The notes beneath the pieces were generated by a model. That model was not told where the DNA came from. It searched no databases and saw nothing but the letters and a program-made list of their open reading frames with translations. This document shows, piece by piece, positions 20,669 through 37,753 of a stretch of 64,000 nt of DNA. Numbering within the stretch: the stretch's first letter is position 1; each line of letters opens with the position of its first letter. Source of the stretch: Sphingomonas lacunae (GTDB taxonomy: Bacteria; Pseudomonadota; Alphaproteobacteria; Sphingomonadales; Sphingomonadaceae). Position numbers and translations under genes: made by a program. The stretch covers positions 372,001-436,000 of the forward strand of contig NZ_CP053015.1 of the NCBI RefSeq assembly GCF_012979535.1. Direction: 5' to 3'.

Positions 20669-20750
20669 GTCGGTCGAAATTTGACTCCGGTCAATGTTGT
20701 GCCGGCTCGGGCGGGTGAGAAGGGCGCATCCCAAAAGCCGGAGAGAGATG

Positions 20751-21869
20751 ATGACCGCCACCACCGCCAATGACGCTCGCACACCTCCTGTCGCCGTCTG
20801 GCAGATCCTTGAGAAACTGCGCGGACAGGAATTGGTCGACTGGCGCGTTGCCCCGCTTGATGACCGCCCCTCGATTGCCGAACGTGGGCTCGACATCGGC
20901 TTCCCCTTTGGCTGGTATGCCATTGAGCTGGCTGATTTCGTTGCCGTCGGCGAGGCCAAACCGCTACGCTATTTCGACAAAGATCTCGCCATCTGGCGCG
21001 GCGAGGATGGCCAGGTCCGCATCATGGACGCCTGGTGCAAGCATCTCGGCGCGCACATGGGCCATGGCGGCAAGGTGCATGGCAATCTGCTCGAATGCCC
21101 GTTCCACGCCTGGCGCTATGACGGCGAGGAAGGTGTGGTCAGGGACATCCCCTATGCGAAGTCGATCCCGCCGCAGGTGAAGCGCAAATGCATGCGCACA
21201 TGGGCAGTGACAGAGGCCAATGGCTGGATCTGGACATGGTATCACCCCGACCCCGCCGTCGGCCCGATGTGGGATGTCGTCGTCCATGACGAGGTCGGCA
21301 ATCCCGACTGGACGCCGTATGAAATGCACGAATGGCTGGTCTATGGCAGCATCCAGAACATGGCCGAAAATGGCGTCGACGTTGCCCATTTCAAATATAT
21401 CCACGGCACCGCCAATGTCCCCGAGGCCGAATTGCGCTGGGGCGATTGGGGCCGCGGAGCCGATGTGAAGGCCCAGATGGGCACGCCCAACGGCATGGTC
21501 GATGGCCTTATCAGCTATGACACCATGGGCCCGGGGCAAAGCTGGACGCGCTTTTCCGGCATCTCGGAAACCCTCCTCGTCGCCAGCCTGACGCCGGTTT
21601 CGGAGGATGTGCTGCGCGTCCGCTATTGCTTCACCCAGCCACGTGCCCAGGCCGAAGGACCCGGTGCCGGCCTCGCCAAGGCGCTGATCCGCGACATTTG
21701 CAAACAGCTCGATCAGGACAAGGTGATCTGGGACCGGATGCGCTTTGAACGCAATCCGATCATCTGCGAAGGCGATGGTCCCATCCCCCAGTTCCGCCGC
21801 TGGTACAGCCGCTATTATGCCGACAGCGCCAGCGACGGCGAACAGCCGAAACTGACGGCGGTGGGGTAA
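20751..21869 (+). CDS. Rieske non-heme iron oxygenase, KshA-like paralogue
   Basis: 372 aa. ATG occurs twice in tandem (20748, 20751); the second has better spacing from GGAG. Rieske ligands are Cys96-x-His98 and Cys116-x2-His119 (ECPFHAWRYD); mononuclear iron ligands are His213 and His218 in NGVDVAHFKYIHG. The C-terminus has WDRMRFERNPII then GDGPIPQFRRWYSRYY as in KshA relatives. It is strikingly similar throughout to the Rieske protein at 29936, so the two are recent paralogues. Family members hydroxylate steroids or steroid side chains using electrons from a reductase, which is not encoded in the window. The exact position attacked is unknown. Confidence 0.88.
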   Translation: MTATTANDARTPPVAVWQILEKLRGQELVDWRVAPLDDRPSIAERGLDIGFPFGWYAIELADFVAVGEAKPLRYFDKDLAIWRGEDGQVRIMDAWCKHLGAHMGHGGKVHGNLLECPFHAWRYDGEEGVVRDIPYAKSIPPQVKRKCMRTWAVTEANGWIWTWYHPDPAVGPMWDVVVHDEVGNPDWTPYEMHEWLVYGSIQNMAENGVDVAHFKYIHGTANVPEAELRWGDWGRGADVKAQMGTPNGMVDGLISYDTMGPGQSWTRFSGISETLLVASLTPVSEDVLRVRYCFTQPRAQAEGPGAGLAKALIRDICKQLDQDKVIWDRMRFERNPIICEGDGPIPQFRRWYSRYYADSASDGEQPKLTAVG

Positions 21870-23950: not shown

Positions 23951-25030
23951 TCAAGCGGCGGAATCCCAAGGCGATTCCTTTGTCCCGCGGGTCACATAGC
24001 TGCCATTGACTCGAGTCTGATAGCTCGCTGCCTCGGACCGGGGGTTATAGAATTGCCGGTACCAGATACGGACCTTGTCGAACGGCCCGTCGCCGCGCAC
24101 CATCATCGGGTTGATGCACGGCCGCTTGTTCGACCAGATCTCAAAGTCCTGGGCAAAAGCATCAACACCTGCGTCTTCATAGGCGCGCGCGGTGGCAATA
24201 TCGGTCTCGTCAGGAGTGGCGTTGGCCACCTTGACGAACAGGCCATACCACACCTTGACCACGCCATCGTCGATCGGCGTGTGCGCGATCAGCATGTGGG
24301 AGGGATTTTCACCAACCATCACCGACTGGAGAATGCCCGGACCGGTGTACCAGGTATCGTTGGTCATCACCGCGCCGCCTTCAGCAGCAAGCGTCTTGTG
24401 CCCGGCGGCCAACACCTGGCGGCAGACATGGTTGTCGAACTCATTGTGGAAATGGACCATGTCGATCGAACCATGGACCGGTTCGAGGTGCGCCTTGTCG
24501 CACATATTGTCGACCACTTCTTGCGGATGGCAGGCCAACTCGCCGAGCATACGGATGTTCCAGTTCACCCAGTGCGGCGTGTCCCACTGTTCAAACGGAG
24601 GAAGGTCATAATCGGCTTCCTGCCCTTCGGGGTCATACCAGATCCACAGGCAGCCCGCACGCTCGGTCACCGGCCAAGACTTGATCGCCGCCGCCTTGGG
24701 CGGCGCCACTGGCGAATAGGGGATCTGGTTGCAACGGCCATCCGGCCCGAAGCGCCAGCCATGATAGGGGCAACGAATATTGTCGCCCTCAACATGGGTG
24801 CCATCCTTTATGACATAGGATGTCGTATTGTTGGCGAGATGGGTGCCCATGTGCGGGCAATAGGCTTCCATCAGGAACACCCGGCCGCTGTCACCGCGAT
24901 ACAGCACCATGTCTTCGCCGAAATAACGGACGCCCACGGGCGTGCGCGTCGCGTCGGCGGACTGGCCGATCATGAACCAGCCGCGCGGATAGGTGAATTC
25001 GCCTAGCCCATAGTCTGCTGTCGTCGCCAT
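23951..25030 (-). CDS. kshA: 3-ketosteroid 9alpha-hydroxylase oxygenase (KshA-type Rieske protein)
   Basis: 359 aa; start at ATG 25030 behind GGGGAGAG. Rieske ligands Cys58-x-His60 and Cys87-x2-His90, with an unusually long loop of 26 residues between the pairs. Mononuclear iron ligands His181 and His186 in VVDNMCDKAHLEPVHG fall at the same residue numbers recalled for actinobacterial KshA; the third ligand is probably Asp295 in QDFEIWSNK. The C-terminal DGPFDKVRIWYRQFYN also matches KshA. Of the three Rieske proteins here this is the most KshA-like. KshA makes 9alpha-hydroxy steroids, which with delta-1 desaturation opens ring B. The reductase KshB is not in the window. Confidence 0.8.
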   Translation of the reverse strand: MATTADYGLGEFTYPRGWFMIGQSADATRTPVGVRYFGEDMVLYRGDSGRVFLMEAYCPHMGTHLANNTTSYVIKDGTHVEGDNIRCPYHGWRFGPDGRCNQIPYSPVAPPKAAAIKSWPVTERAGCLWIWYDPEGQEADYDLPPFEQWDTPHWVNWNIRMLGELACHPQEVVDNMCDKAHLEPVHGSIDMVHFHNEFDNHVCRQVLAAGHKTLAAEGGAVMTNDTWYTGPGILQSVMVGENPSHMLIAHTPIDDGVVKVWYGLFVKVANATPDETDIATARAYEDAGVDAFAQDFEIWSNKRPCINPMMVRGDGPFDKVRIWYRQFYNPRSEAASYQTRVNGSYVTRGTKESPWDSAA

Positions 25031-25129: not shown

Positions 25130-25165
25130 TGTTGCGTAACCAAGCAAAAATCAAGCTACGCAATC
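25130..25165. promoter_or_regulatory. Steroid-regulon operator, site D
   Basis: TGTTGCGT, 20 bases, ACGCAATC. It is about 100-135 bases upstream of the kshA-type gene and touches the stop codon of the Lrp-type gene. It therefore probably serves the Rieske gene rather than the regulators. Confidence 0.65.
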
Positions 25166-25649
25166 AATCGTCTTCAACGAGGTCCGTCTCGGTAATCCGC
25201 ACGACTCTGGCATTATATTTGATCGTCTTGACCGCGATCGAGGTTTCGACGTGATGCACGCCGGGGATCGCCAATATCTGTTCGGACGCAATCTCCAGCA
25301 ACCCGTCAAGACTGCTGAACAGGCAAAAGGCCAGGATATTGAACCGTCCCATGATGACCATCACGGCATTGACGGTCGGCAGTTCCCCGATCTGGCGAGC
25401 TATTTCGCGGACATTGTCAACATCGGCCTGAACACCGATGAAGGCCAGGCGCGAGTCATCGGCAAGCCCGAAGTCTGTGATCGCGGTAAAGGAAATCAGG
25501 CGATCCTGCTGAAGCCGCTTGATGCGACCGCGGACTGTACCTTCGGTTACCCCCAGGTCCACAGCAATCTTGCGATTGGATACGCGGGCGTCACGTGCCA
25601 ATATCTCGATCAACTGACGGTCGAGGTCATCCAGTACCGGTGCGCTCAT
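25164..25649 (-). CDS. Lrp/AsnC-family regulator, second of a tandem pair
   Basis: 161 aa: N-terminal winged HTH (LDDLDRQLIEILARDARVSN, then RKIAVDLGVTEGTVRGRIKR) and a C-terminal RAM (alpha-beta sandwich) ligand/oligomer domain with the family's NAVMVIMGRFNILAF strand. Length is typical. It overlaps the upstream Lrp gene by ATGA, so the two are co-translated and could form mixed oligomers. It lies inside the steroid cluster next to operator D and is a good candidate for the regulator of the repeated operator; effectors of this family are amino acids or other small organic acids. Confidence 0.9.
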   Translation of the reverse strand: MSAPVLDDLDRQLIEILARDARVSNRKIAVDLGVTEGTVRGRIKRLQQDRLISFTAITDFGLADDSRLAFIGVQADVDNVREIARQIGELPTVNAVMVIMGRFNILAFCLFSSLDGLLEIASEQILAIPGVHHVETSIAVKTIKYNARVVRITETDLVEDD

Positions 25650-26125
25650 GCGATCCCCCTGGAGTCAATCGGCGCCACGTCAAATTGATATTTCACCACA
25701 TCGACGACTATGCCGGGGGTCATGGATCGGACACCCTTCACCTTGGAAAATTTGTCGAGGATCAGGTCGGGCAGTTCGCTGAAATCGCGCAATACCACCA
25801 ACAGGTCGATGTCATAACGGCCGGTCACCAGATGGGCGGCAAAACATTCCGGAAATTCGGCCAGTTCCGCCGCGACCTTTGATGCGGGCCGACCGTCAAC
25901 CTCGATCGCGAGTTCCATCAGCACATTGTATCCGTGCGCCGAGAAGTCGGAGACAGCAACAACACGAAGCTTGTCGGCATCTTCCATACGCCGGATACGG
26001 GTCGAGACGGTCGCTGCCGTAAGGCCCAACTGATTGGCAATCTGCTGGTTGGTCGCCCTCCCATTTTTGCGCAACTCGGCCACGATGGCGCGGTCAATCT
26101 CGTCAACGGTAAAATCGTCACTCAT
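25646..26125 (-). CDS. Lrp/AsnC-family regulator, first of a tandem pair
   Basis: 159 aa: HTH (VDEIDRAIVAELRKNGRATN, then QQIANQLGLTAATVSTRIRR) and RAM domain (HLVTGRYDIDLLVVLRDFSE). It differs clearly from its downstream partner, so this is not a recent duplication. The two genes overlap by four bases. No copy of the steroid operator was seen in its own upstream region (26126-26351), so autoregulation by that site is not supported. Confidence 0.9.
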   Translation of the reverse strand: MSDDFTVDEIDRAIVAELRKNGRATNQQIANQLGLTAATVSTRIRRMEDADKLRVVAVSDFSAHGYNVLMELAIEVDGRPASKVAAELAEFPECFAAHLVTGRYDIDLLVVLRDFSELPDLILDKFSKVKGVRSMTPGIVVDVVKYQFDVAPIDSRGIA

Positions 26126-26351: not shown

Positions 26352-27620
26352 TCATTCATCCGCCAGAGCCAGACGGTCCCTTTCAATCCGCCTCGAAGCC
26401 AGCAAGGCCAACCAGCCGCCCAGAAAGCCGACCGGCATGATGCAGGACAAGCCAATGCGCAGGGCATCACCGCCATTGCCGAGCTGGGAGCTTATTTCCC
26501 CGGCTAGCCAAGGCCCAAGGAAAAATCCAAGGAGAGTGGTAACAGCGAGGAACAGGGCGGTCGCGCTTGCCCTGAACTGAACCGGCAAGAGATACTGCAG
26601 CATCGCCATAAATCCGACCGACCAGCCGCCGCCCAGCAAACCGGCAGGGACAGCGAACAGCAAGGCGATGCGGAAACTGTCCGACCAAGTGGCGAACAGG
26701 ATCATGGTCGTGGCACATGCCAAGGCGATACCGGACAAGCGCAAAGGCCACACCTTGTCACGCTGCGACAATCGATCCGCGAGGAAACCGAAACACAGCA
26801 TGCCCGCCATGCCGGACAAGCCAAAGCTGATCGCGAAGGCGGATTTGGCCTGTACGGGATCCATCGCATAAACACGCGAGAACAGTTCGGGGCCCCAGAA
26901 ACCGAATGCAACGCCGGACAAGGTGCCCATGCCCATGGATCCCATCATCAACAGATAGGCCGGTGTCGCCTTCAACCGTTGGACAATGGTCATGAAGGGT
27001 ATCTGCACGACAGCCGAAGGCCCGGAGGTCGCGCGCTGGGGTTCGCGGATCAGCATGACGACGAGCAGTCCGAGCAATATGCCTGGCGCACCCATTATCC
27101 AAAAGGCCGCATGCCAGCCAAAGGCGGCACCCAAAGCAGGGCCGCCGGCTTGACCCGCAATTTGGCCGAAATAGGTTGCAAGGCCCAGAATGGCGTAGGC
27201 CATGCCCCGCCGTTCAGGGCGGAAATAATCGGCCAGCAAGGAATAGGCTGGCGCGGCAAAGGCGGCTTCCCCGATGCCGACACCAACACGAGCCAGCGCG
27301 AGTGTGACCGGCCCGGTCGCAAAACCGGTCGCCAAAGTGCAAGCGCTCCACATGACGCAGCCTGCGGCGATGATCTTTACGCGCGATGACTTGTCGGCCA
27401 GCCGGGCGATCGGCACCCCCGCAACCACATAGAGAACAACAAAGGCGGGACCGATCAAAAGGCCCATATAGCCATCATCGACATTGAACTCTGCCTTGAT
27501 GTCGCCAATCAGGCCCGTGATCAGATAGCGGTCGGCAAAGTTGAAGATGGACACGACCAACAGGGTGAACAGAACCACCCACGGATTGCTGAGGCGCTGC
27601 GCCGGTTGGGCATCAGTCAC
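26352..27620 (-). CDS. MFS transporter
   Basis: 422 aa from a GTG at 27620 that overlaps the upstream SDR stop codon; an ATG at 27638 is an alternative. About twelve transmembrane segments with the MFS motif between TM2 and TM3 (VPIARLADKSSRVK) and a second half starting near VQIPFMTIVQRLKA. Hydrophobic start FTLLVVSIFNFADRYLITG is typical of the organic-anion/aromatic-acid carriers of sphingomonads. Last gene of the eight-gene operon with CoA ligases, oxygenase and amidase, so import of a bile acid or export of a product is the likely job. Confidence 0.88.
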   Translation of the reverse strand: MTDAQPAQRLSNPWVVLFTLLVVSIFNFADRYLITGLIGDIKAEFNVDDGYMGLLIGPAFVVLYVVAGVPIARLADKSSRVKIIAAGCVMWSACTLATGFATGPVTLALARVGVGIGEAAFAAPAYSLLADYFRPERRGMAYAILGLATYFGQIAGQAGGPALGAAFGWHAAFWIMGAPGILLGLLVVMLIREPQRATSGPSAVVQIPFMTIVQRLKATPAYLLMMGSMGMGTLSGVAFGFWGPELFSRVYAMDPVQAKSAFAISFGLSGMAGMLCFGFLADRLSQRDKVWPLRLSGIALACATTMILFATWSDSFRIALLFAVPAGLLGGGWSVGFMAMLQYLLPVQFRASATALFLAVTTLLGFFLGPWLAGEISSQLGNGGDALRIGLSCIMPVGFLGGWLALLASRRIERDRLALADE

Positions 27621-28374
27621 GTTTGATCGTCCCGCCATTGACGTGCCAGACCTGCCCATTGACCCATTCGCCATCGTCGGAGGCGAGGAAAGTCACAGCC
27701 GCTGCGATATCTTCTGACTTGCCGAGGCGGGTATGCGGAATGGCCTTGAGACCCTGCTCGCGATACTCATCGGTCAAGTGCATTTGCGCGGCCTCTGTCA
27801 GGACAAGTCCCGGACAGATAACATTCGACCTGATGCCCTTCTTGCCCCATTTTTGGGCCACATGGCGCGCCAGCGCATGGACCGCATTCTTGGTCATCGG
27901 ATAGGCAACCTGCCAGGGATTGCCGGCAGCGGCGGCGCCCGAAGAGGTGTAGATCATCGCCCCACCGCCATTCTCCAGCATGGCGGGCAGCGCCGCCTGC
28001 GTCGCCAGGAAATGGCTCTTGGTGTTGATGGCAAAGCTGCGGTCGAGCACCTCTTCCGGGCAATTGAGCGCGTCTATGTCACCCTCGGTGCCACCCGCCA
28101 GATTGCTGTGATAAATGTCGAGCTTGCCATAGGTATCCAGCGCCAGCTTGACGATCGCGGCTTGGGATGCAGCCTTCGTCCCATCAAGCGCAAACGCAAT
28201 CGCCTTGCCGCCCTTGGCGACAATGTCAGCCGCAACCTCCTGCGCCTGTTCGATGAGCAAGTCGCCAACGACGACATGGGCACCTTCTTCCGCCAACCGC
28301 CGAGCCGTGGCGGCGCCGATACCCCGGGCTCCACCCGCCACAATTGCCACTTTGCCTTTCAAGCCGCGCATCAT
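27613..28374 (-). CDS. Short-chain dehydrogenase/reductase of the side-chain operon
   Basis: 253 aa from the first of two tandem ATGs (28374 and 28371) after TTGGAGAG. Cofactor motif GGARGIGAAT, Asp in HVVVGD, a HSNLAGG segment replacing the usual NNAG, catalytic YPMTK and C-terminal WVNGQVWHVNGG. The unusual SNLAGG is still compatible with an SDR fold. It overlaps the MFS gene by eight bases and follows the amidase after 36 bases, so it belongs to the same transcript. Substrate unknown. Confidence 0.88.
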   Translation of the reverse strand: MMRGLKGKVAIVAGGARGIGAATARRLAEEGAHVVVGDLLIEQAQEVAADIVAKGGKAIAFALDGTKAASQAAIVKLALDTYGKLDIYHSNLAGGTEGDIDALNCPEEVLDRSFAINTKSHFLATQAALPAMLENGGGAMIYTSSGAAAAGNPWQVAYPMTKNAVHALARHVAQKWGKKGIRSNVICPGLVLTEAAQMHLTDEYREQGLKAIPHTRLGKSEDIAAAVTFLASDDGEWVNGQVWHVNGGTIKRD

Positions 28375-28410
28375 TCTCTCCAAACCCTGCCCGTGTCCGG
28401 ACATTCATCC

Positions 28411-29934
28411 TCAATCAAATTCCGGTGGCTGCCGATCCGCCCAGGGCGCTGCCCGTTCCAGTTGCGCCGCCAGCGCAAACAGCGTTGCTTCGTCGCCGTA
28501 GCGACCGGTGAACATGCTGCCGATCGGCAGACCCTGTGCAGACATGGCCAGCGGCACCGACATAGACGGTTGCCCTGACCAGTTGGCCATTTGCGTAAAG
28601 GGAGTGAACATGCCTGTCCGCCGGCCCCATTCGGCAAAATCACAATCCGGCGTCAGGTTGATCCGCCCCAGTTCAAGAGGCGGCGAAGCGAGTGTTGGCG
28701 AGAGAATCAGATCGAACCTCTCCATGAACTGCGCCACTGTCACCGCCGCCGCCTGAAACACATTATTTGCCCGGGCCATATCCATCGCGCTGAAACGCCT
28801 ACCATATTCGGCGAAAGCCAGGGTCATCGGCTCCAGAACATCGGGACCGGGCGTTATGCCCAATGAAGCCGCCCGATCATCAATGTCAGCGGCAATCCCC
28901 GGAGCCATGATGGCGAAACTGGCCTGCCCCAGCGCAGCGGCATCCAGCACAGGAGCAGCGTCCTCGACATGGTGACCCAGACTCTCGCACAACCGCGCTG
29001 TCTCGCGCGCGGCCTCGATGCACTGCGGGTCGACCGGGCTGCCAGCAGGCGGCGTCAGCATCAGGGCGATGCGCAACGGGCGCGGATCGCTCTGTGTCGC
29101 CGCAAGGAATCCTTCAGCCGGTGCTGGTGCACCATAGCGCGACCCCGGTTCGACCCCATGGGTCGCATCCATTATCGCCGCCGAATCCCGAACCGACCGG
29201 GTAACGGCGTGGTGGGAAGACATACCGCCCCAGCCCTCAGTGCGCAGCGGGCCCATCGGTATCCGCCCGCGGCTTGGTTTGAGGCCGAACAGACCGCAGC
29301 AGGACGCCGGCAGCCGGATTGATCCGCCACCGTCAGTCGCATGGGCCGCTGGCAACACGCCAGCTGCCACTGCAGCCGCCGCGCCGCCCGAAGAACCACC
29401 AGCAATATGGGCAGGATTCCAAGGATTGCGCGTGTCGCCGTTGAGCTTGTTCTCGGTCGTACCTGTCAGGCCGAACTCGGGCGTCGTTGTCTTCCCAAAG
29501 ATGACAAAGCCAGCCCGCTCGTATCGCTGGACAAGTTCAGACGTCACGCTGGCCCGGTTGCCGCGATAGAAACGGCTCCCACCTTCACTCAATTCACCGG
29601 CAATATGCGTGTTCAGATCCTTGAGCAGCCAGGGCACCCCGGTGAATGGCCCGTCTGGCAGCCCACGGGCCACCGCCGCGCGTGCGCGCTCGTCCAGCCG
29701 CTGCGCCATGAAGTTGAAGCGCGGGTTGAGCCGTTCGGTCCGCGCAATCGCCATGTCGAGCAACTCGCCCGCCGACACCTCGCGCCGCCGGACAAGGTCC
29801 GCCAGACCCATCGCATCGTGCGTCGACAACAGCACTTCATCTCCGGTCTGGCTCATTGCCCTTGCTCCTCCGGCAACAGTCGCGGCAAAGGCCGCAGTGG
29901 CGCCCATGAGCACCTGGCGCCTGCTCGCCACCAC
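28411..29934 (-). CDS. Tat-exported amidase-signature hydrolase, candidate bile-salt amidase
   Basis: 507 aa if started at GTG 29934 (29931 is equally possible), which overlaps the upstream Rieske stop codon and preserves a twin-arginine signal SRRQVLMGATAAFA. The mature part is an amidase-signature enzyme. Predicted triad Lys105, cis-Ser181 and nucleophile Ser205, with the 24-residue Ser-Ser spacing seen in FAAH; motifs IAGGSSGGAAAAVAAG and TDGGGSIRLPAS. Export suggests it acts on a conjugated substrate in the periplasm. In Sphingobium Chol11 a side-chain-cluster amidase is reported to cleave conjugated bile salts (recalled), so deconjugation of glyco/tauro bile salts is a strong hypothesis. 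The alternative is an amide made during side-chain removal. Confidence 0.82.
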   Translation of the reverse strand: MVASRRQVLMGATAAFAATVAGGARAMSQTGDEVLLSTHDAMGLADLVRRREVSAGELLDMAIARTERLNPRFNFMAQRLDERARAAVARGLPDGPFTGVPWLLKDLNTHIAGELSEGGSRFYRGNRASVTSELVQRYERAGFVIFGKTTTPEFGLTGTTENKLNGDTRNPWNPAHIAGGSSGGAAAAVAAGVLPAAHATDGGGSIRLPASCCGLFGLKPSRGRIPMGPLRTEGWGGMSSHHAVTRSVRDSAAIMDATHGVEPGSRYGAPAPAEGFLAATQSDPRPLRIALMLTPPAGSPVDPQCIEAARETARLCESLGHHVEDAAPVLDAAALGQASFAIMAPGIAADIDDRAASLGITPGPDVLEPMTLAFAEYGRRFSAMDMARANNVFQAAAVTVAQFMERFDLILSPTLASPPLELGRINLTPDCDFAEWGRRTGMFTPFTQMANWSGQPSMSVPLAMSAQGLPIGSMFTGRYGDEATLFALAAQLERAAPWADRQPPEFD

Positions 29935-29935
29935 C

Positions 29936-31042
29936 TCAACCAGCGGCCCGTTGCGATGCAGGAGCCCCGTCACCCGCCGCGTAAAAGCGCGAGTAAAATT
30001 TCCGGAAATGCGGGATCGGTCCATCCCCATCACAGATGATCGGGTTGGGCTCGTACCGCATCCGGTCCCAGACCACCTTGTCCTGATCGAGCTGCTTGTT
30101 GACGTCCTTGATGATCGCACGGGCCAGCCCGGCCATTGGCCCCTCGGCCTGCTCGCGCGGTTGGGTGTAGCAATAGACGACCTGCAACTCGTCCAGCTCG
30201 ACCGGGATGATGCAGGCGACCAGCAATGTCTCGCAAATGCCGGTGAAGCGGACCCAGGCCTGCCCAGGTCCCATTGAGTTGCTGGTGATGGCACCGTCAA
30301 CCATCCCCTTGGGCGTGCCCATCTTGGCCCGGACGGTACCGCAACGGTCCCATTCGCCCCATGTCAGCTCGGACGTTGGCAATTCGGCGGTGCCATGGAT
30401 ATATTTGAAATGGGCGAAATCGACGCCATTCTCCGCCATATTCTGGAGCGATCCGAACACTTTCCATTCGACGATGTCATAGGGTGTCCATTCCGGGTCA
30501 CTGGCCTCGGGCAGATGGACCACCTCATACATGGGCGCCGCATCCTCAGGGTGATACCAAACCCACAGCCACTGATTGGCTTCGCGGATATGCCAGGTGC
30601 GGGTGCACTTGCGCTTCACCTGCGGCGGGATGGCCTTGGCATAGGGAATCTCCTTCACCACGCCTTCCTCGCCATCGTAACGCCAGGCATGGAACGGGCA
30701 TTCAATCAGATTGCCCGCCACCTTGCCGCCATGACCGAGGTGCGCGCCCAGATGCTTGCAATAGGCATCGATCATCCGCACCTGACCGTCCTCGCCGCGC
30801 CACACTGCCAGATCACGGGCGAAATAACGCGCCGGCTTCACTTCACCGACCGCAAGATCCTTGGCGAGCATGAACGGATACCAGCCGAAGGGAAAACCAA
30901 TATCGAGGTTGCGCTGCGCCGGGTCAGGGCGATTGGCAATGTCCGCCACGCGCCAGGCCTCGCGCTCTTCCTTCGTCATCTTTTCGAGCACCTGCCACAC
31001 CGCAACTGGGGCAGTGCGGGCGTCGGTTGCAGCGTCAGTCAT
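29936..31042 (-). CDS. Rieske oxygenase of the side-chain operon
   Basis: 368 aa. Rieske ligands Cys95-x-His97 and Cys115-x2-His118; iron ligands His211 and His216 in NGVDFAHFKYIHG; C-terminus WDRMRYEPNPIICDGDGPI. Closely related over its full length to the Rieske protein at 20751 (both have APVAVWQ/PPVAVWQ near residue 12 and the same CPFHAWRYDGEEGVV). The start follows GGGGAGAA. It sits between the amidase and the amidohydrolase-like gene in an operon with two CoA ligases. A Rieske monooxygenase is part of the side-chain cluster described in bile-salt-degrading sphingomonads (recalled), so hydroxylation of the side chain or C17/C20 region is inferred. Confidence 0.87.
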   Translation of the reverse strand: MTDAATDARTAPVAVWQVLEKMTKEEREAWRVADIANRPDPAQRNLDIGFPFGWYPFMLAKDLAVGEVKPARYFARDLAVWRGEDGQVRMIDAYCKHLGAHLGHGGKVAGNLIECPFHAWRYDGEEGVVKEIPYAKAIPPQVKRKCTRTWHIREANQWLWVWYHPEDAAPMYEVVHLPEASDPEWTPYDIVEWKVFGSLQNMAENGVDFAHFKYIHGTAELPTSELTWGEWDRCGTVRAKMGTPKGMVDGAITSNSMGPGQAWVRFTGICETLLVACIIPVELDELQVVYCYTQPREQAEGPMAGLARAIIKDVNKQLDQDKVVWDRMRYEPNPIICDGDGPIPHFRKFYSRFYAAGDGAPASQRAAG

Positions 31043-31084: not shown

Positions 31085-31957
31085 TCAGAGCTTGAAGACG
31101 CGCGCCGCATTGTCGCGCAGGAACTTCGGCCAAACCTCGTCCTTCAGCGGTACATTCTCCATGTCGGACATTATCCGCTCGAGGCTGAGGCCCATGGGGA
31201 AATAGCCGGCATAGATGATCTTTTCGGCGCCCCGGGTGTTTGCATAGTCGATGATGGCCTTGGGGTAATGCTTGGGCGCAAAGGCGCTTGTCGAATAATA
31301 GAGGTTTGGCCACTTCAGCATCAGCTTGACCGCCAGCGCCTCCCACGGCTCGGCACCGTGCCGCATGACGATCTTCAGATCGGGGAAGAACCAGCATACC
31401 TCATCAAGATGTTCGACCTTCTGCGTTTCCATCGGAATGCGCGGGCCGGGAATGCCGACGTTGAGCAGGATCGGAATGTCCAGTTCGACCGCACAGGCAT
31501 AGAGCGGGAACATATATTTGTGGTTGATTGCCACCTGCGGCAGCGTGCCGGCGGGAAAAACACTGATCGCCGACAGACCGACTTCGGCATGGATACGCTT
31601 GATCCGGCGCACCTCTTCCATGCCCTTGTTGGGATCGCATGGCAGTTCAAAGGCAAAGCGGTCCGGATACATCGCCTTCGCCCGTCGCGACGTATCGTTC
31701 TCGTTCCAGCCGATCAGCGCCTTGGCGATGCCATGCTTGTCCATCTGCTCGACGGTCCATTGCACATAGTCGTCTGCATGGCCTGTCTGCGGCACGTCCT
31801 TGAACATATACTGAGCCGGCATCGAAAATTGCTGGAGAGTCTGCTCATCCTTGATCAGCGGACGAAAGGCAGTGAACCAGTCCGAACGGTCTTCCGCCTC
31901 AGGAATGCCGAGCATGCAGTCGATGATGCCAATGTCTTTGGGCATGCCCATGGTCAC
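31085..31957 (-). CDS. Amidohydrolase-fold protein lacking the HxH metal motif
   Basis: 290 aa from a GTG that overlaps the upstream ligase stop (GTGA); ATG 31951 is an alternative. The fold is recognisable as PF04909 (KIVMRHGAEPWEALAVKLML, NLYYSTSAFAPKHYP). However the first strand reads IGIIDCMLGIPEA where the family has DxHxH, and the last strand has YAGYFPMG where a metal-binding Asp usually sits (GSDFP). The usual metal site therefore looks missing. It may be a hydrolase with a different mechanism, a lyase, or a non-catalytic partner. Co-operonic with CoA ligases, Rieske oxygenase and amidase. Confidence 0.8.
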   Translation of the reverse strand: MTMGMPKDIGIIDCMLGIPEAEDRSDWFTAFRPLIKDEQTLQQFSMPAQYMFKDVPQTGHADDYVQWTVEQMDKHGIAKALIGWNENDTSRRAKAMYPDRFAFELPCDPNKGMEEVRRIKRIHAEVGLSAISVFPAGTLPQVAINHKYMFPLYACAVELDIPILLNVGIPGPRIPMETQKVEHLDEVCWFFPDLKIVMRHGAEPWEALAVKLMLKWPNLYYSTSAFAPKHYPKAIIDYANTRGAEKIIYAGYFPMGLSLERIMSDMENVPLKDEVWPKFLRDNAARVFKL

Positions 31958-33633
31958 GCGTCTCCGTAAATATCGACCCAGCGCGCACGCATGGCCACCT
32001 TGTTCAATTTGTCGAGATGATTGCGCGGCATGGGTTCGCTGACAAAGCCGATCTTGCCCGGCGCCTTGTAACGGGCCAGCCGCTCGGCCACCCAGTCCAT
32101 GGCCGCGGCCTCGGTGATGTCTGCGCCATCACCGCACCGCACCACCGCAACGAGCAGCTCACCCAACCGCTCGTCAGGCACGCCAAAGGCAACGCATTCG
32201 GCTACGCCCGGCATCTGGGCCAGCACCCGCTCCACTTCAGCGCAATAAATATTCTCGCCGCCGGAAATGACCATGTCCTTCTTGCGATCGACAATGAAGA
32301 CATAGCCTTCTTCGTCGATCCGCCCGATGTCGCCGGTGCGCAACCAACCCTCGCCAGACAGGCAGGCGGCGGTATCCTCGGGCCGGTTCCAGTAACCGCC
32401 CATCACTTGCGCACCCCGCACGACAATTTCGCCAGCTTCACCCACCGGCAGCGCCGATCCGTCCGGCCCTTCGATGCGGACATCAACCATCGGCAGCAAT
32501 CGCCCGGCGGATTCGGGCTTGCGCACGAATTCCTCACCCACCGCTTGGGCGATCGACCCGGAACATTCAGTCATGCCATAACCGGTGCCGAACATGGCGT
32601 GGGGACATGCCGCCCTGATCGCGTCAAGCAGTTGCACCGGCAGTGCCTGTCCGCCGCTGCCGATGTTTCGCAGCGAGCTCAGATCGGCATCAGCCAGCCT
32701 TGCCTTGTTCAGCACGTCCCAAAGCATTGTCGGCACGCCCGAAAACATCGTGACTCGTTCTGCCTCAATCAGGCGCAGGGCGGCGTCGGCATCCCATCGG
32801 CGCATGATCACAACCTTGGACCCTGCGAGCAAGGGGGACAGGAAAGCCGATCCCAGTCCAGAAATATGGAACAAGGGATAGACCAGCAACACCGCCTGCT
32901 GCGGGCTGTTCTGCAACAATGTCTCGACCGACAGATTCATCTGCCGGGCAACATTGTGCAGCACCTGCATGCCGGACAACTGCACCGCCATCAGCCCGGT
33001 GATCAGGTTGCGATGGGATAACACCGCCCCCTTGACCCGACCGGTAGTGCCTGACGTGAAAAGGATCGTGCACGGATCGTTGGGACCCGCCAGCGAGAGA
33101 CTGGTGCCAGCGGCGCCTTCCGTCCGTCGGGCGATGTCCGCCTCGTCGAACGGATGGGTCAGGTCGAGCATTCGCCCGGTATAGCCACCTTCGCGCAGCA
33201 ACGCGGCCCGCTGGCTGTCCGCCAGCACCAGCGCCGGCGTCACTTCCTCGATCATGCCGACCAGTTCGCTCGGCGCGCCCCGGCTGTTGAACAAGGCAGC
33301 TACCCCACCAGCCTTGATCACTGCCAGAAAAGCCACAATCCATTCGGCGCGATTGCGCATGCAAATCGCGACCCGGTCGCCCTTGGCAATGCCCAGCATC
33401 GGCACCAGTTGATCGCGCCAGGCAAAGACCTGTGCAAAGGTCAGGCGCCGCTGAGAGCCGTCGTCATTGTCCTCGACGATGAAAATCTTGTCACCGTGGC
33501 GCCGCGCGCTTTCGATCATCATGTTGATGTCAGGCGGCGCGGAGAGGAACTGGCGCAGACCATCCCGCTCCCCGATTTCGAACGGTGCTCCGGGGCCTGT
33601 CAGGGCAGCGAAGACAGGGTCAATCTCGTTCAT
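31954..33633 (-). CDS. AMP-dependent acyl-CoA ligase (second in operon)
   Basis: 559 aa. Adenylation motifs: ILFTSGTTGRVKG (P-loop), FGTGYGMTECSG, GWLRTGDIGRIDEEG, and a C-terminal PRNHLDKLNKVAMR carrying the catalytic Lys, with Asp in place of the usual Gly. ANL-superfamily ligase of the FadD type, cytoplasmic, forming a CoA thioester of a steroid side-chain carboxylate or of HIP. It overlaps both neighbours by four bases. A FadD3-like role for HIP is possible; the side-chain role fits the operon better. Confidence 0.9.
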   Translation of the reverse strand: MNEIDPVFAALTGPGAPFEIGERDGLRQFLSAPPDINMMIESARRHGDKIFIVEDNDDGSQRRLTFAQVFAWRDQLVPMLGIAKGDRVAICMRNRAEWIVAFLAVIKAGGVAALFNSRGAPSELVGMIEEVTPALVLADSQRAALLREGGYTGRMLDLTHPFDEADIARRTEGAAGTSLSLAGPNDPCTILFTSGTTGRVKGAVLSHRNLITGLMAVQLSGMQVLHNVARQMNLSVETLLQNSPQQAVLLVYPLFHISGLGSAFLSPLLAGSKVVIMRRWDADAALRLIEAERVTMFSGVPTMLWDVLNKARLADADLSSLRNIGSGGQALPVQLLDAIRAACPHAMFGTGYGMTECSGSIAQAVGEEFVRKPESAGRLLPMVDVRIEGPDGSALPVGEAGEIVVRGAQVMGGYWNRPEDTAACLSGEGWLRTGDIGRIDEEGYVFIVDRKKDMVISGGENIYCAEVERVLAQMPGVAECVAFGVPDERLGELLVAVVRCGDGADITEAAAMDWVAERLARYKAPGKIGFVSEPMPRNHLDKLNKVAMRARWVDIYGDA

Positions 33634-35225
33634 GCGGCTTCAGCCACAACCGATTTGGCCCACCGGTAATCCTGCTTGCCTGCCGCCGATCGTTTCACGT
33701 CGTCCACCCACACCAGAGCCTTGGGCAGCTTGTACCCGGCCAAACGTTCGGAGAGGAACGCACGCACATCTTCATAGTCGGGCCTGTCAGCGCCAGACCG
33801 TAGTGACACCACCCCCACCACCCGCTCACCCCAACGGGGATCAGGCTGCCCCGCAACAACGGCATCCTGAATGGCTGGGTGTGCACGCAGTGCTTCCTCC
33901 ACTTCCTCAGGAAATATCTTCTCGCCACCGCTGTTGATGCAGGTCGATCCGCGCCCGAACACCGTGATCATGCCATCATCGTCCAGCCGTCCGGCATCGC
34001 CGCTGACGGACCAAAGCCGGGCATCAATGGTACGGAACACCTCTGCCGACTTCACCGGATCGTTGAAATAGCCGACCGGTGTGTGGCCCGACCGGGCGAT
34101 GAAGCCAGTCTCGCCAGGCTTGGCCAACCGGTCCTCGATTACCACCTGCTGGTTCTCATTAGCCGGCAGGCGCATCATGCCGTCGCCCGGCGCGCCATCA
34201 GCCTGCCCTGACACGCCGGTTTCCGAAGACCCCATCCCATCGGTGATCCCGCAACTGTCCGGCAGAAAGCGTCGCAGGTCATCCTTCACATGTTGTGAGA
34301 ACACCGCGCCGCCCGAGCCGAAATTGAACATGTGCGCCAGTGACCAGCGCTCCGGATTGGCCAGCAGGGCATCGCGCAGCGGGATGGCCATGGCGTCACC
34401 CACGATCTGGACAATATTGACGCCGAGCCGCTCGATCTTGTCCCACAGTGCCACCGGGTCAAAGCTGCGACCTTCATCAACAACAATGGTCAGCCCGTTG
34501 AGCATTCCCGACCACACGGACCACAGCGCCGCCGCGTGCATCAGCGGAGCGACAGGGAACAGCTTCAGCGGATATCCCTTGCTGGCCCGGTCATGGATGT
34601 CGGCCGGCTCAACCAGGGGGCCCACAGGATTGAAATAGCCGCCACCGCCGGCACAGGCGAAGACAAAGGCCTTGTGCGGCCACATCACGCCCTTGGGCAT
34701 GCCTGTCGTGCCGCCGGTATAGGTCAGGATGATGTCATCTTCCCCGCGCGGCCACGGCCCGCTCGGTGCAAAGGACAGAAGTTCGGCATAGGTGACAGAC
34801 CCTTCGGTCGACACGCCTGACCCGTCTTCGACCGCCACCGCCAGCTTGAGCCCCGGCAGTTCAGGCCGCAGTTCACGGACGATGTCCCCATATTCGGCGC
34901 CATGGATCACCGCTGCTGACTGCGCATTATCGAACAGATAGCGCAGTTCATCCGGACGGTAACGGTAGTTGATGTTGAACGGGACTGCGCCGAGCTTCAC
35001 TATCGCGATGAAGGCTTCGACATGTTCGGCCCGGTTCATCAGATACAGCCCGACCGTATCGCCCCGAACCAAACCATGCGCCGCCAGCCCGGCGGCCAGC
35101 CGGTTGGCACGGTCATTCAGTTCGGCATAGGTCAGACTGAGCGAGTCAGAGATCAGCGCCACACGATCCGGCACCGTCGCCGCAACAGCCTCGAACAGGT
35201 CGGCCAGATGGAACTGCTTCACCAT
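33630..35225 (-). CDS. AMP-dependent acyl-CoA ligase (first in operon)
   Basis: 531 aa from the ATG at 35225, one base after the SDR stop (TGAGATGG); the frame is open further upstream but that part lies inside the SDR gene. Motifs: ILTYTGGTTGMPKGVMWPHK, GMGSSETGVSGQ, LWSVSGDAGRLDDDG and a C-terminal KRSAAGKQDYRWAK with the catalytic Lys. The sequence resembles FadD17/FadD19-like steroid CoA ligases. With a second ligase directly downstream, the two may act on C24 and shortened side chains or on different steroids. Confidence 0.9.
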   Translation of the reverse strand: MVKQFHLADLFEAVAATVPDRVALISDSLSLTYAELNDRANRLAAGLAAHGLVRGDTVGLYLMNRAEHVEAFIAIVKLGAVPFNINYRYRPDELRYLFDNAQSAAVIHGAEYGDIVRELRPELPGLKLAVAVEDGSGVSTEGSVTYAELLSFAPSGPWPRGEDDIILTYTGGTTGMPKGVMWPHKAFVFACAGGGGYFNPVGPLVEPADIHDRASKGYPLKLFPVAPLMHAAALWSVWSGMLNGLTIVVDEGRSFDPVALWDKIERLGVNIVQIVGDAMAIPLRDALLANPERWSLAHMFNFGSGGAVFSQHVKDDLRRFLPDSCGITDGMGSSETGVSGQADGAPGDGMMRLPANENQQVVIEDRLAKPGETGFIARSGHTPVGYFNDPVKSAEVFRTIDARLWSVSGDAGRLDDDGMITVFGRGSTCINSGGEKIFPEEVEEALRAHPAIQDAVVAGQPDPRWGERVVGVVSLRSGADRPDYEDVRAFLSERLAGYKLPKALVWVDDVKRSAAGKQDYRWAKSVVAEAA

Positions 35226-35226
35226 C

Positions 35227-36099
35227 TCAATAAACCGCCGCCGGGTTCTTCGGACGCGGACTGCCGAGCATGTCGCGATAGGAGGGCCGGTCATTGCCCC
35301 TGTCAGAGATGCCGAGCTCCTTGGCAATCTCGGCTGCGATCAGCGTCTGGCCCGACAGTTCATCGCGATTGACCGCCTTGTCGACCGCATCAACGACATG
35401 CGCGGTGAATTCCGGATTCTCCGCTGTCTCGATGAAGCCTTCATATTGCTCGGGGTTGGTTTCCTTGGCGATCAGCGAACGTTCGGTGATCAGCGGACCC
35501 ATCCAGATCGATACGGCGATGACGCCCGTCCCCCGCAGATCATGCTCCATGTCATGGGCAAATTTGTCGATGCCCGCCTTTTGCGCACCATAGGCAGGGC
35601 CGTGCATGTAACATGAGCCGCCGAAAGATGAGCCAAAGGCAATTACACCGCTGCCCTGCGGCACCATGATCCGCGCCGCGTGCCAGCTCGCGACATAGGC
35701 CGAGCGCAACCCGACATCGAGGATCTTCGCGGCATCGAGCTCCTTCTCCCAAAAGGGCTTTTTCTCGATCAGTTGCGAATGGATATAGGTCGCATTGTTG
35801 AAACAGACATCGAGCCGGCCCTGTTCGGCCATGATCCGCTCAAACAGCGCCGCGACCTGCGCATCGTCGGCATGGTCGCACATCACCGGGATGCCTTTGC
35901 CACCACGCTCGGTGACTTCCTGAGCCGTTTCCGCCACCGTGCCAGGGAGGACCGAACCGTCCCATCCCTTGGCTGATCCAGGCTGGACGGTGCGCCCGGT
36001 AACGTAAACGGTATAGCCCAGCTCGCCAAAGCCGCGGGCAATACCACGCCCCGCGCCCCGGCTGGCGCCAGTCACCAGCGCGATCTTCCTGTCAGCCAT
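35227..36099 (-). CDS. Short-chain dehydrogenase, DHRS1-like
   Basis: 290 aa from the ATG at 36099, preceded by GGGGGAGAG. SDR with TGASRGAGRGIARG, an Arg-containing cofactor strand (VTGRTVQPG, favouring NADP), FNNATYIHSQ in place of NNAG, FGSSFGGS and YGAQKAG (Tyr-x3-Lys). The extended loop after the cofactor strand and the C-terminal tail ending SPRPKNPAAVY resemble the DHRS1 group of SDRs. It is the first gene of the eight-gene side-chain operon and the closest to operator E. Confidence 0.87.
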   Translation of the reverse strand: MADRKIALVTGASRGAGRGIARGFGELGYTVYVTGRTVQPGSAKGWDGSVLPGTVAETAQEVTERGGKGIPVMCDHADDAQVAALFERIMAEQGRLDVCFNNATYIHSQLIEKKPFWEKELDAAKILDVGLRSAYVASWHAARIMVPQGSGVIAFGSSFGGSCYMHGPAYGAQKAGIDKFAHDMEHDLRGTGVIAVSIWMGPLITERSLIAKETNPEQYEGFIETAENPEFTAHVVDAVDKAVNRDELSGQTLIAAEIAKELGISDRGNDRPSYRDMLGSPRPKNPAAVY

Positions 36100-36152
36100 A
36101 CTCTCCCCCACGATTCGTCGCGTGCTTTGGTTATCGGACGTCATAAGGCATG

Positions 36153-36188
36153 TTTTGCGGATTTCAAATCACATTATGTTACGCATGT
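36153..36188. promoter_or_regulatory. Steroid-regulon operator, site E (side-chain operon)
   Basis: TTTTGCGG, 20 bases, ACGCATGT; the left half has GCGG instead of GCGT. It lies about 55-90 bases upstream of the first gene of the minus-strand operon 36099-26352. Confidence 0.6.
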
Positions 36189-36230
36189 GAAGGCCAATCA
36201 GCAAAATCGCTTTTCATTCGCGAAGCCTTA

Positions 36231-36926
36231 TCACCTGACAAACTCATATTGGCTGGTCGGCATGACCGTGATTGTGCCCGGCGTGATGAAATGCTCGCAG
36301 CTTGCCATCATCCGGGCAAGGTTCGCCTTGAATTTCGCCACATCGCCAGCCGCGTCAAAGAAGGTCAGCGGGTCGGTCAACGCTGCCTCGGGGAAGCATT
36401 CCTCGACGATGGCTGCACAGTCAGGGGCATCGTCGCGCAACGGCGCCACCACCCGGTTCTGCACATATTCAAAGGTCGACTGCGTCTCGATCGCCACCGC
36501 CGTGTGCCGTCCTTGCCAGGCCTCCAGCCAATCCGCCTCGGACTGGCCGGTCGGCCGCACCAGCAGGGCGATCTGCGCCCAGCCGGCGGTACGCTCGCCT
36601 GGCTGCGGTGGACAGGCTGTGTTGGGCAGTGGCACCTGCTCCTCCACCTGCCAGCCATGCCAGCGCGCCGCATGATGGTCGAACAGCGCGCCGAAACCTG
36701 AGCCGTCTCCCGCTCCCCACATCTGGACGATCGCGTCGGGATAGCTGCCATCGGGCGATTGCCGCAGCCCCGCGCCCGCCGCCACCGCCGCGTCTGGCAG
36801 ATTGATCCGCACCCTCGCCGCGCCCGCGTCCAGCAACGCTGGCGCGAGACGCTGACGCAACCCGGCCTGCCATGCAGCCTGATCGACAGCCGGATCAGCG
36901 GTCATGATCGCGATCAGTTTTTCCAT
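36231..36926 (-). CDS. EthD-domain (dimeric alpha-beta barrel) protein
   Basis: 231 aa. It begins MEKLIAIMTADPAVDQAAW and contains a second half starting ALLVRPTGQSEADWLEAWQG with the EthD-like WLExWxGRHT and EYVQNRV strand, ending near PGTITVMPTSQYEFVR. This suggests two tandem ferredoxin-like domains in one chain. EthD-type proteins are small accessory or isomerase/oxygenase-like proteins of largely unknown function; some act on polyketide or steroid rings. It is 11 bases downstream of an SDR, and both are transcribed from operator F. Confidence 0.72.
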   Translation of the reverse strand: MEKLIAIMTADPAVDQAAWQAGLRQRLAPALLDAGAARVRINLPDAAVAAGAGLRQSPDGSYPDAIVQMWGAGDGSGFGALFDHHAARWHGWQVEEQVPLPNTACPPQPGERTAGWAQIALLVRPTGQSEADWLEAWQGRHTAVAIETQSTFEYVQNRVVAPLRDDAPDCAAIVEECFPEAALTDPLTFFDAAGDVAKFKANLARMMASCEHFITPGTITVMPTSQYEFVR

Positions 36927-36937
36927 GCTCGCGCCGT

Positions 36938-37699
36938 TCAGTCGAAATTGGCCTGCCCGCCGTCGAGCGGGATGGTTGCGCCGGTGAGATAGGCCATGTC
37001 GTCACTGCACAGCGCCGCCACCGCCCGGCCAATGTCCTCCTCCAGCCGGCCGATCCGGCCCAGCGGAATGGTTCGGAAGAAAGCTTCCGCCTCCTCCGGA
37101 TTTTTCGACACCCACCATTTCAGTCCTGGGGATTCCGCATGCGGTGCGACGCTCAGCACGCGGATTCCGTCGCGACCCCACTCTGCCGCTGCCGCGCGGG
37201 TCAGCGAACGGATGCCCTGCTTCACCGCAGCATAGGTGCCATAGCCGGTCATGTCCCACCGCACCCCCACCGAAGAGGCAAGGTTGATGATCGTCCCGCC
37301 GCCGCGCGCAACCATGAGCGGCTGCACCAGCTTCATCAGCCGAAAGGTCGCCAACGGCCCCGATTCAAACCCGCCGACAAAGGCTTCATCACTGATGTCC
37401 ATCAGCTTGCCCTGTGGCACCTCCTGCGCATTGTTGACGAGGATGTCGATGCCGCCAAAGCGATCCTGTGTCGCCGCGACCATCGCTGCCAGGCTGCCAG
37501 CATCGCGCACATTGCCTTCAACCGGCAACGCCTCTCCGCCTCTTTCACTGATCAACGCACAGGTCGATTCGAGCTTCGCCAATGTGCGGCCACTGACCGC
37601 CACTTTCGCGCCGGCGGCGGCAAGCGCCAGTGCGATGCCCTGGCCCACCCCTTGTCCTGCGCCGGTGACAAGCGCGACTTTTCCTGAAAGATTGGCCAT
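36938..37699 (-). CDS. Short-chain dehydrogenase/reductase
   Basis: 253 aa from the ATG at 37699. Cofactor loop TGAGQGVGQGIA, Arg in VAVSGRTLAK (NADP-like), ILVNNAQEVPQ in place of NNAG, IINLASSVGVRWD with catalytic Ser, YAAVKQG (Tyr-x3-Lys) and C-terminal YLTGATIPLDGG. Hydroxysteroid dehydrogenase activity is inferred from the cluster only. It is divergent from the SDR-KstD unit across operator F. Confidence 0.88.
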   Translation of the reverse strand: MANLSGKVALVTGAGQGVGQGIALALAAAGAKVAVSGRTLAKLESTCALISERGGEALPVEGNVRDAGSLAAMVAATQDRFGGIDILVNNAQEVPQGKLMDISDEAFVGGFESGPLATFRLMKLVQPLMVARGGGTIINLASSVGVRWDMTGYGTYAAVKQGIRSLTRAAAAEWGRDGIRVLSVAPHAESPGLKWWVSKNPEEAEAFFRTIPLGRIGRLEEDIGRAVAALCSDDMAYLTGATIPLDGGQANFD

Positions 37700-37718
37700 G
37701 TGAGCAATGCATCCTCTA

Positions 37719-37753
37719 GATTCGTAATTTTTTGGCAATTGATTTACGCAGGA
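37719..37753. promoter_or_regulatory. Steroid-regulon operator, site F
   Basis: GATTCGT, 20 bases, ACGCAGGA. The left half is TTCGT instead of TGCGT. It lies in the 148-base divergent region between the SDR/EthD unit and the SDR/KstD unit. A TTGACA at 37756 with TCAATT 17 bases later could be the plus-strand promoter, right beside the right half-site. Confidence 0.6.

Follow-up and report, generated by a model that had tools for sequence, protein, structure and literature searches.

Could a protein that has kept the amidohydrolase fold but lost its metal site be what cuts the side chain of bile acids in sphingomonads? The question is raised by a gene, here called AH2, in the window, that is, the whole 64,000-nucleotide stretch of Sphingomonas lacunae (Sphingomonadales) DNA that was analysed. 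In the excerpted text of papers from 2021 and 2025, side-chain removal in this group is called mostly or largely unknown (PMC8540908, PMC12175502), and its product is given as a 17-ketosteroid, HATD (PMC8540908). Here we put AH2 forward as a candidate for the missing cutter of bile acids, and name a specific reaction, its products and the residues that might carry it out.

AH2 lies in a steroid-degradation region

The Pfam matches of the window fit 3-ketosteroid dehydrogenases, an extradiol dioxygenase, an alpha/beta hydrolase and an FAA hydrolase, with further matches to a DmpG-type aldolase, a CoA transferase, an enoyl-CoA hydratase and several acyl-CoA dehydrogenases; the pathway names suggested for these genes are our own reading of such matches. 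AH2 itself is a minus-strand open reading frame (31085–31957) of 290 codons with a GTG start, although an ATG two codons in is equally plausible and agrees with the starts of its orthologues. Its sole Pfam match, to PF04909 (Amidohydro_2), covers residues 59–290 at 74.7 bits against a curated cut-off of 26.4, and a search of NCBIfam with AH2 assigned no family. The features discussed here are listed below, with identities to counterparts in Novosphingobium (now Sphingobium) sp. Chol11, for which the excerpted review gives the numbering SclA (Nov2c230, a bile-acid CoA ligase), Bsa (Nov2c227), Scd4B (Nov2c222) and Scd4A (Nov2c221) (PMC8399759). Counts of 81 refer to the AH2 of the window together with the best 80 of 580 confirmed loci, which are 62–95% identical.

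31085–31957, minus: AH2, a 290-residue PF04909 TIM-barrel protein without the metal site (Pfam, orthologues, model); 86% to its Chol11 orthologue, Nov2c229 by gene order
31907–31921, minus: strand-1 site D13-C-M15-L-G17, which is D-x-H-x-H in metal-dependent members (alignment, model)
31460–31462, minus: N166, at the place of the strand-5 His (orthologue alignment; N 77, C 4)
31358–31360, minus: H200, strand-6 His, candidate acid/base (invariant, 81/81)
31202–31204, minus: Y252, at the place of the strand-8 Asp (invariant, 81/81)
31954–33633, minus: CoA ligase, its stop overlapping the AH2 start; 63% to the Chol11 gene at the SclA (Nov2c230) place
29936–31042, minus: Rieske oxygenase with a KshA_C domain; 68% to the Chol11 gene at the Nov2c228 place
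28411–30300, minus: amidase, homology confined to 28426–29829; 71% to the Chol11 gene at the Bsa (Nov2c227) place
27613–28404, minus: SDR; 73% to Chol11 gene 226 by order
26352–27674, minus: MFS transporter; 63% to Chol11 gene 225 by order
25646–26125, minus: AsnC-type regulator; 65% to Chol11 gene 224 by order
25164–25649, minus: AsnC-type regulator; 62% to Chol11 gene 223 by order
20694–21869, plus: second Nov2c228-like Rieske oxygenase, away from AH2; 74%
60605–61747, plus: acyl-CoA dehydrogenase; 69% to the Chol11 gene at the Scd4B (Nov2c222) place
61744–62925, plus: acyl-CoA dehydrogenase; 90% to the Chol11 gene at the Scd4A (Nov2c221) place

Three Rieske/KshA_C oxygenases occur in the window, at 20694–21869 (+), 23951–25030 (−) and 29936–31042 (−); two of them resemble Nov2c228 (74% and 68%), the copy adjacent to AH2 being the less similar, and two Nov2c228-like Rieske genes are also present in genomes G136, G150 and G230. 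If its first TTG is taken as the start, the amidase frame at 28411–30300 (−) runs into the Rieske gene; since its homology to the Chol11 amidase begins only near 29829, the true start probably lies further downstream.

The metal site is lost throughout the AH2 family

The metal ligands of amidohydrolases, namely the HxH motif, a strand-5 His, a strand-6 His and a strand-8 Asp, fall in AH2 at M15/G17, N166, H200 and Y252, an assignment backed by alignment with HxH members of PF04909. M15 and G17 occupy the places of HxH, N166 that of the strand-5 His and Y252 that of the Asp, with the strand-6 His (H200) kept. A sequence-only reading of this DNA had described a first strand without HxH (IIDCMLGIP), a last strand without the conserved Asp (YAGYFPMG) and a retained RHGAEPW segment; all three motifs are present as quoted, and the residues at each place confirm what was said of them. 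That reading had missed the replacement of the strand-5 His as well.

An AlphaFold2 model built from a 56-row alignment (pLDDT 84.6, pTM 0.87) predicts an amidohydrolase-type beta/alpha barrel, for which VIA-align lists 50 entries at Z 18.4–23.8. The eight modelled strands end at residues 13, 83, 106, 136, 167, 199, 224 and 250, so that the D13-x-M15-x-G17 site falls where strand 1 ends, strand 5 carries N166, and H200 and Y252 come immediately past strands 6 and 8, respectively. By sequence and modelled fold, then, AH2 is a member of PF04909.

Neither HxH nor the strand-8 Asp occurs in any of the 81 orthologues (the window and the best 80 of 580 loci). The residues found in their stead are nearly or wholly constant in the same set: D13 in 81, M15 in 80 and G17 in 79, R173, R199, H200 and Y252 each in all 81, and N (77) or C (4) at position 166. 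In all, 78 positions are invariant, including H200, R199, R173, Y252 and D13, and alignment and model together place several of the invariant polar residues at strand ends. Against ten orthologues, dN/dS of AH2 is 0.037–0.103, synonymous change being high and amino-acid change low. Because the key sites are invariant and dN/dS is low, AH2 is not decayed, and the idea of a damaged copy is ruled out; the earlier claim that the site was lost in an intact gene stands, and the loss is fixed in the family.

The other PF04909 protein of the window (11288–12328, −), an internal control, retains DPHHH. That the loss of HxH is peculiar to AH2, however, as the sequence-only reading implied, proved wrong: the DAWAQHP and DAVVNIW groups of PF04909 also lack it. 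Metal loss alone is therefore no pointer to function; operon context is. In a 44-row tree AH2 forms a single clade (support 100/99), and the group next to it (95/87) mixes HxH-less rows with two HxH rows. AH2 relatives with Cys at position 166 (L017, L018, L128, L129 and L130), several of which have unusual neighbourhoods, perhaps act on a different substrate.

A conserved neighbourhood with exceptions

Among the best 80 of 580 loci, a CoA ligase lies directly upstream of AH2 (within 600 bases, same strand) in 70 of the 77 with enough upstream DNA, and a Rieske gene directly downstream (within 1200 bases) in 69 of the 75 with downstream DNA. Both genes flank AH2 in 64 of 72 assessable loci, the other eight lacking one or both neighbours. 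The substitution seen in the window thus recurs in orthologues beside the ligase and Rieske genes, where intact HxH was looked for and found in 0 of 81 (the window and these 80), and the earlier placement of AH2 within a steroid side-chain operon is borne out. Scd4A (at least 50% identity) falls inside the examined flank in 20 of the 80, and five loci (L112, L115, L117, L124 and L125) have a compact AH2–Rieske–Scd4B–Scd4A unit, that is, with two acyl-CoA dehydrogenases in succession.

The ligase is missing from its place just upstream in L088, L112, L115, L117, L126, L128 and L130, being found further downstream in L112 and L115; no Rieske gene adjoins AH2 in L104, L106, L122, L128, L129 and L130. 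In L104, a Hellea MAG, an enoyl-CoA hydratase (10870–11640) directly follows AH2 in the usual place of the Rieske gene, and might process the released C5 acyl-CoA. In L130, a deltaproteobacterial MAG, a luciferase-like monooxygenase (10920–12182) lies just downstream of the AH2 relative, and no Rieske or ligase match was found near it. Within genomes of the order, 16 of 18 neighbourhoods show the arrangement Rieske–AH2–ligase, AH2 usually being the best-conserved gene; of the two exceptions, one ends at a contig end and the other belongs to a 43% relative (L019/L048), which adjoins an SDR, a FAD_binding_2 protein and a P450 rather than a Rieske and a ligase gene. The sister contexts L049 and L050 (Usp, glycosyltransferase, EamA, ketopantoate reductase) gave no functional hint.

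Co-occurrence across 296 genomes of the order, a set that overlaps the 80 loci (for example, L070 and G268) and whose figures are inflated by shared ancestry and co-location, so that we attach no probability to them, follows the same lines. AH2 is present at 82% or more in 16 genomes, with two more at 63–64% and one at 43%; a Nov2c228-type Rieske gene (E ≤ 1e-120) and Scd4A at 82% or more each occur in exactly those 16. Scd4A at 56–69% is found in seven more genomes, two of them the genomes with AH2 at 63–64%. The ring-degradation gene ipdA occurs in 24 of the 296: in all 18 with AH2 at 63% or more, and in 6 of the 278 others. AH2 thus tracks steroid degraders, among them those with a Nov2c228-type Rieske gene and Scd4A, but since Scd4A lies tens of kilobases from AH2 in several genomes, the co-occurrence partly reflects one large steroid region that is present or absent. 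One in-frame TGA each interrupts the G247 Rieske gene (C3:15127–16200) and the G208 Scd4A gene (C32:78179–79351), both otherwise intact homologues, marking either sequencing error or recent inactivation. It is very probable that AH2 belongs to the bile-acid side-chain module.

A gap in the side-chain pathway

Orthologues of AH2 occur in Chol11 (L070, 86%), which serves as the model strain for bile-salt breakdown in sphingomonads, and also in Sphingobium estronivorans AXB and Croceicoccus estronivorus MH-B5. In L070 an AMP-binding ligase, AH2, a Rieske/KshA_C protein, a PF01425 amidase and an SDR are followed by an MFS match, two AsnC matches, two acyl-CoA dehydrogenases and two thioesterase-type proteins. 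Lying between the matches to SclA (230) and the Rieske oxygenase (228), the orthologue would by gene order be Nov2c229. A literature search, with 10.1128/AEM.01453-21 and PMC8432579 outside its range, found Nov2c229 unnamed and its protein without a function, bar a suggestion made for Caenibius tardaugens. Its neighbour Nov2c228 is described, in an excerpted paper, as a monooxygenase probably behind a hydroxylation important for side-chain degradation, at a position called unclear (PMC12175502).

What Chol11 appears to lack is the classical machinery. According to the excerpted review, homologues of Sal1, FadA5, Sad and Sal2/Ltp2 were not found in Chol11 and related Sphingomonadaceae, and its table lists as absent from Chol11 the hydratases (Shy), Sal1, Sad, a second ligase, a second acyl-CoA dehydrogenase and Sal2 (PMC8399759). 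Known steroid side-chain aldolases are described, again in excerpts, as acting with a DUF35 partner domain (PMC8399759, PMC11321319). The corresponding family, PF01796 (ChsH2/DUF35, OB_ChsH2_C), has no match in the Chol11 genome (G268), nor in G116, G059, G291 and G085, so that five of the 19 genomes with an AH2 relative are without any; no DUF35 partner was found among the scanned AH2 neighbours in the window and Chol11. As a general rule this absence is rejected: ChsH2-type domains are present in 14 of the 19, with four in the genome to which the window belongs, so that the known aldolases may act in some of these bacteria.

Expression in C. tardaugens bears on the same point. Passages of one paper report that on cholate its bsd I cluster is induced, with the amidohydrolase EGO55_16305 up about 21-fold, that sal-like genes are uninduced, and that growth persists after deletion of an igr-like operon (PMC12882949). 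The cluster order given there is amidohydrolase–monooxygenase–Scd4B–Scd4A–SclA–MaoC–alpha/beta hydrolase (PMC12882949), from which, by gene order alone, EGO55_16305 would be the AH2 orthologue.

A possible metal-free retro-aldol cut

We propose that AH2 is a metal-free C–C lyase, a retro-aldolase, of the sphingomonad bile-acid side-chain pathway, a proposal that we consider about evenly balanced. The more specific version is offered tentatively, as something we rather doubt than expect: AH2 might be the first metal-free aldolase of the amidohydrolase fold, removing the five-carbon side chain by a one-step vinylogous retro-aldol cut at C17–C20. The Nov2c228-type Rieske oxygenase would hydroxylate the steroid, most simply at C17 (the position is our assumption), SclA would form the C24 CoA ester, and Scd4AB would add the delta-22 double bond; CoA activation and delta-22 dehydrogenation are the published activities of SclA and Scd4AB. 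AH2 would then bind the 17-hydroxy-delta-22-24-oyl-CoA, and H200 would deprotonate the C17 hydroxyl, with Y252, R173 and R199 as candidate helpers. As C17–C20 breaks, the C17 alkoxide would collapse to the ketone and the five-carbon fragment depart as a dienolate, the double bond conjugated to the thioester taking the charge, which is what would make the retro-aldol vinylogous. The products would be a 17-ketosteroid and a pentenoyl-CoA, the latter finished by ordinary beta-oxidation.

With a C17 hydroxyl and a double bond conjugated to the thioester, C17–C20 should be cleavable in one step; such a cut would need an acid/base and an oxyanion pocket, and so no metal. AH2 could supply an invariant His at the ACMSD acid/base place and invariant Arg, Tyr and Asp near strand ends, and with a one-step cut a single set of side-chain enzymes would be enough. 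We infer C–C cleavage by AH2, the position of the cut, the mechanism and every residue role. The proposal draws on the constraint on AH2, its neighbourhood, the compact AH2–Rieske–ACAD–ACAD units and the co-occurrence; on the pathway gap in Chol11, with its classical genes listed as absent in the excerpted source and no PF01796 match; on the cholate response reported in passages on C. tardaugens, of the amidohydrolase rather than the sal-like genes or igr-like operon (PMC12882949); and on the many nearest folds of known function that are C–C lyases or a hydratase. Against it stand the loci without a Rieske gene at AH2 (L104, L106) and the further deviation of L122 and L128–L130, and the MaoC hydratase of the C. 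tardaugens-type operon, which would suit a hydration route as well. Among the structural neighbours of AH2, those of known function use a metal.

Four other readings deserve weighing. Were AH2 instead to hydrate the delta-22 double bond of the bile-acyl-CoA (or to isomerize it), an unrecognized aldolase would do the cutting. Foldseek ranks LigJ, a hydratase with this fold, among its best hits for AH2, but LigJ uses a metal, the site of which AH2 has lost. The usual hydratase, Shy, is listed as absent from Chol11 in the excerpted review table (PMC8399759), yet a separate aldolase would still be missing there, where no ChsH2/DUF35 partner was found, and C. tardaugens-type operons, in the passages describing them, have a MaoC hydratase of their own beside AH2 (PMC12882949); on balance we find this reading unlikely. 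In another reading, which we think improbable, the introduced hydroxyl and the C24 carboxyl would join in a lactone, potentially six-membered if the hydroxyl is at C17, and AH2 would reopen it as a metal-independent lactonase or isomerase. The superfamily includes LigI, described as metal-independent, and putative LigI-type structures (4i6k, 2ffi) appear in the VIA list at Z 19.0; but LigI retains the histidines and Asp that AH2 lacks, the lactone is itself hypothetical, and the C–C cut would be left unexplained.

That most canonical active-site residues are gone might suggest a non-catalytic protein, for instance one that chaperones the Rieske oxygenase or the ligase or serves either as a scaffold, or else a decayed copy. 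The dN/dS values contradict decay, invariant polar residues at strand ends are as expected for a catalytic pocket, and some loci have AH2 without an adjoining Rieske gene, so that we give this reading very little weight. Scarcely credible, finally, is hydrolysis of glycine or taurine conjugates, which the C. tardaugens authors, in the passages cited, propose for EGO55_16305 from its family name and cholate induction, in contrast to the lyase role suggested here (PMC12882949). The water-activating metal ligands are gone in 81 of 81 orthologues (the window and the best 80 of 580); a PF01425 amidase at the place of Bsa, reported in the excerpted review to cleave both conjugates (PMC8399759), adjoins in Chol11-type loci; and the authors themselves point out that a secretion signal is absent (PMC12882949). 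The lost metal site and the neighbouring Bsa-type amidase together make conjugate hydrolysis by the C. tardaugens protein unlikely.

If the lyase proposal is true, a metal-free C–C lyase joins a superfamily defined by its metal site, and a pathway that degrades animal-derived steroids is shortened; in the one-step version, one set of ligase, dehydrogenase, Rieske oxygenase and AH2 would replace two rounds of activation, desaturation, hydration and aldolysis.

Comparison with known systems

The window shares with the Chol11 cluster the order ligase–AH2–Rieske–amidase–SDR–MFS–two AsnC genes. The Scd4AB copies lie beside the AsnC genes in Chol11, whereas those of the window are about 29 kb off on the other strand. 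Upstream, too, the window differs, with a second CoA ligase, two SDRs and an EthD-domain protein (33630–37738, −) before the SclA-type gene; this set recurs in many relatives but was not seen in the Chol11 locus. The C. tardaugens bsd I order, as far as its description goes, is that of L115 in Croceicoccus estronivorus, a locus that opens with an AH2 orthologue (68%) and has an extra SDR on the other strand before the ligase.

The best PDB match of AH2 is BB4693 of Bordetella bronchiseptica (3irs, 3k4w; E 5.2e-21 with a profile), an uncharacterized protein that also tops the VIA-align list (Z 23.8, 2.9 Å, 251 residues). About 22% identical to AH2, it likewise has a strand-8 segment without Asp (GTAYP) and keeps the His in SSHGNWPW; we know of no operon link for it. 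Among the top Foldseek matches are LigW2, 2,6-dihydroxybenzoate decarboxylase, ACMSD and the hydratase LigJ, all sharing the AH2 fold; many of the structurally closest proteins with an assigned function are C–C lyases, alongside a hydratase. Several PF04909 decarboxylases break C–C bonds by holding a carbanion, and these four enzymes need a metal; unlike them, AH2 lacks HxH, the strand-5 His and the Asp. The place of H200 is presumably that of the acid/base His in ACMSD. Among the Foldseek matches is also 4eri, the title of which refers to an active-site histidine with a dual role.

The equivalent job in known pathways, retro-aldol removal of the side chain, is ascribed in excerpted sources to Sal/Ltp2 with a ChsH2/Shy DUF35 partner. 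Those enzymes pair a thiolase-like protein with the DUF35 domain, whereas AH2 is predicted to be a TIM barrel without a partner; by sequence and model AH2 is not a Sal/Ltp2 aldolase, but it may work like one.
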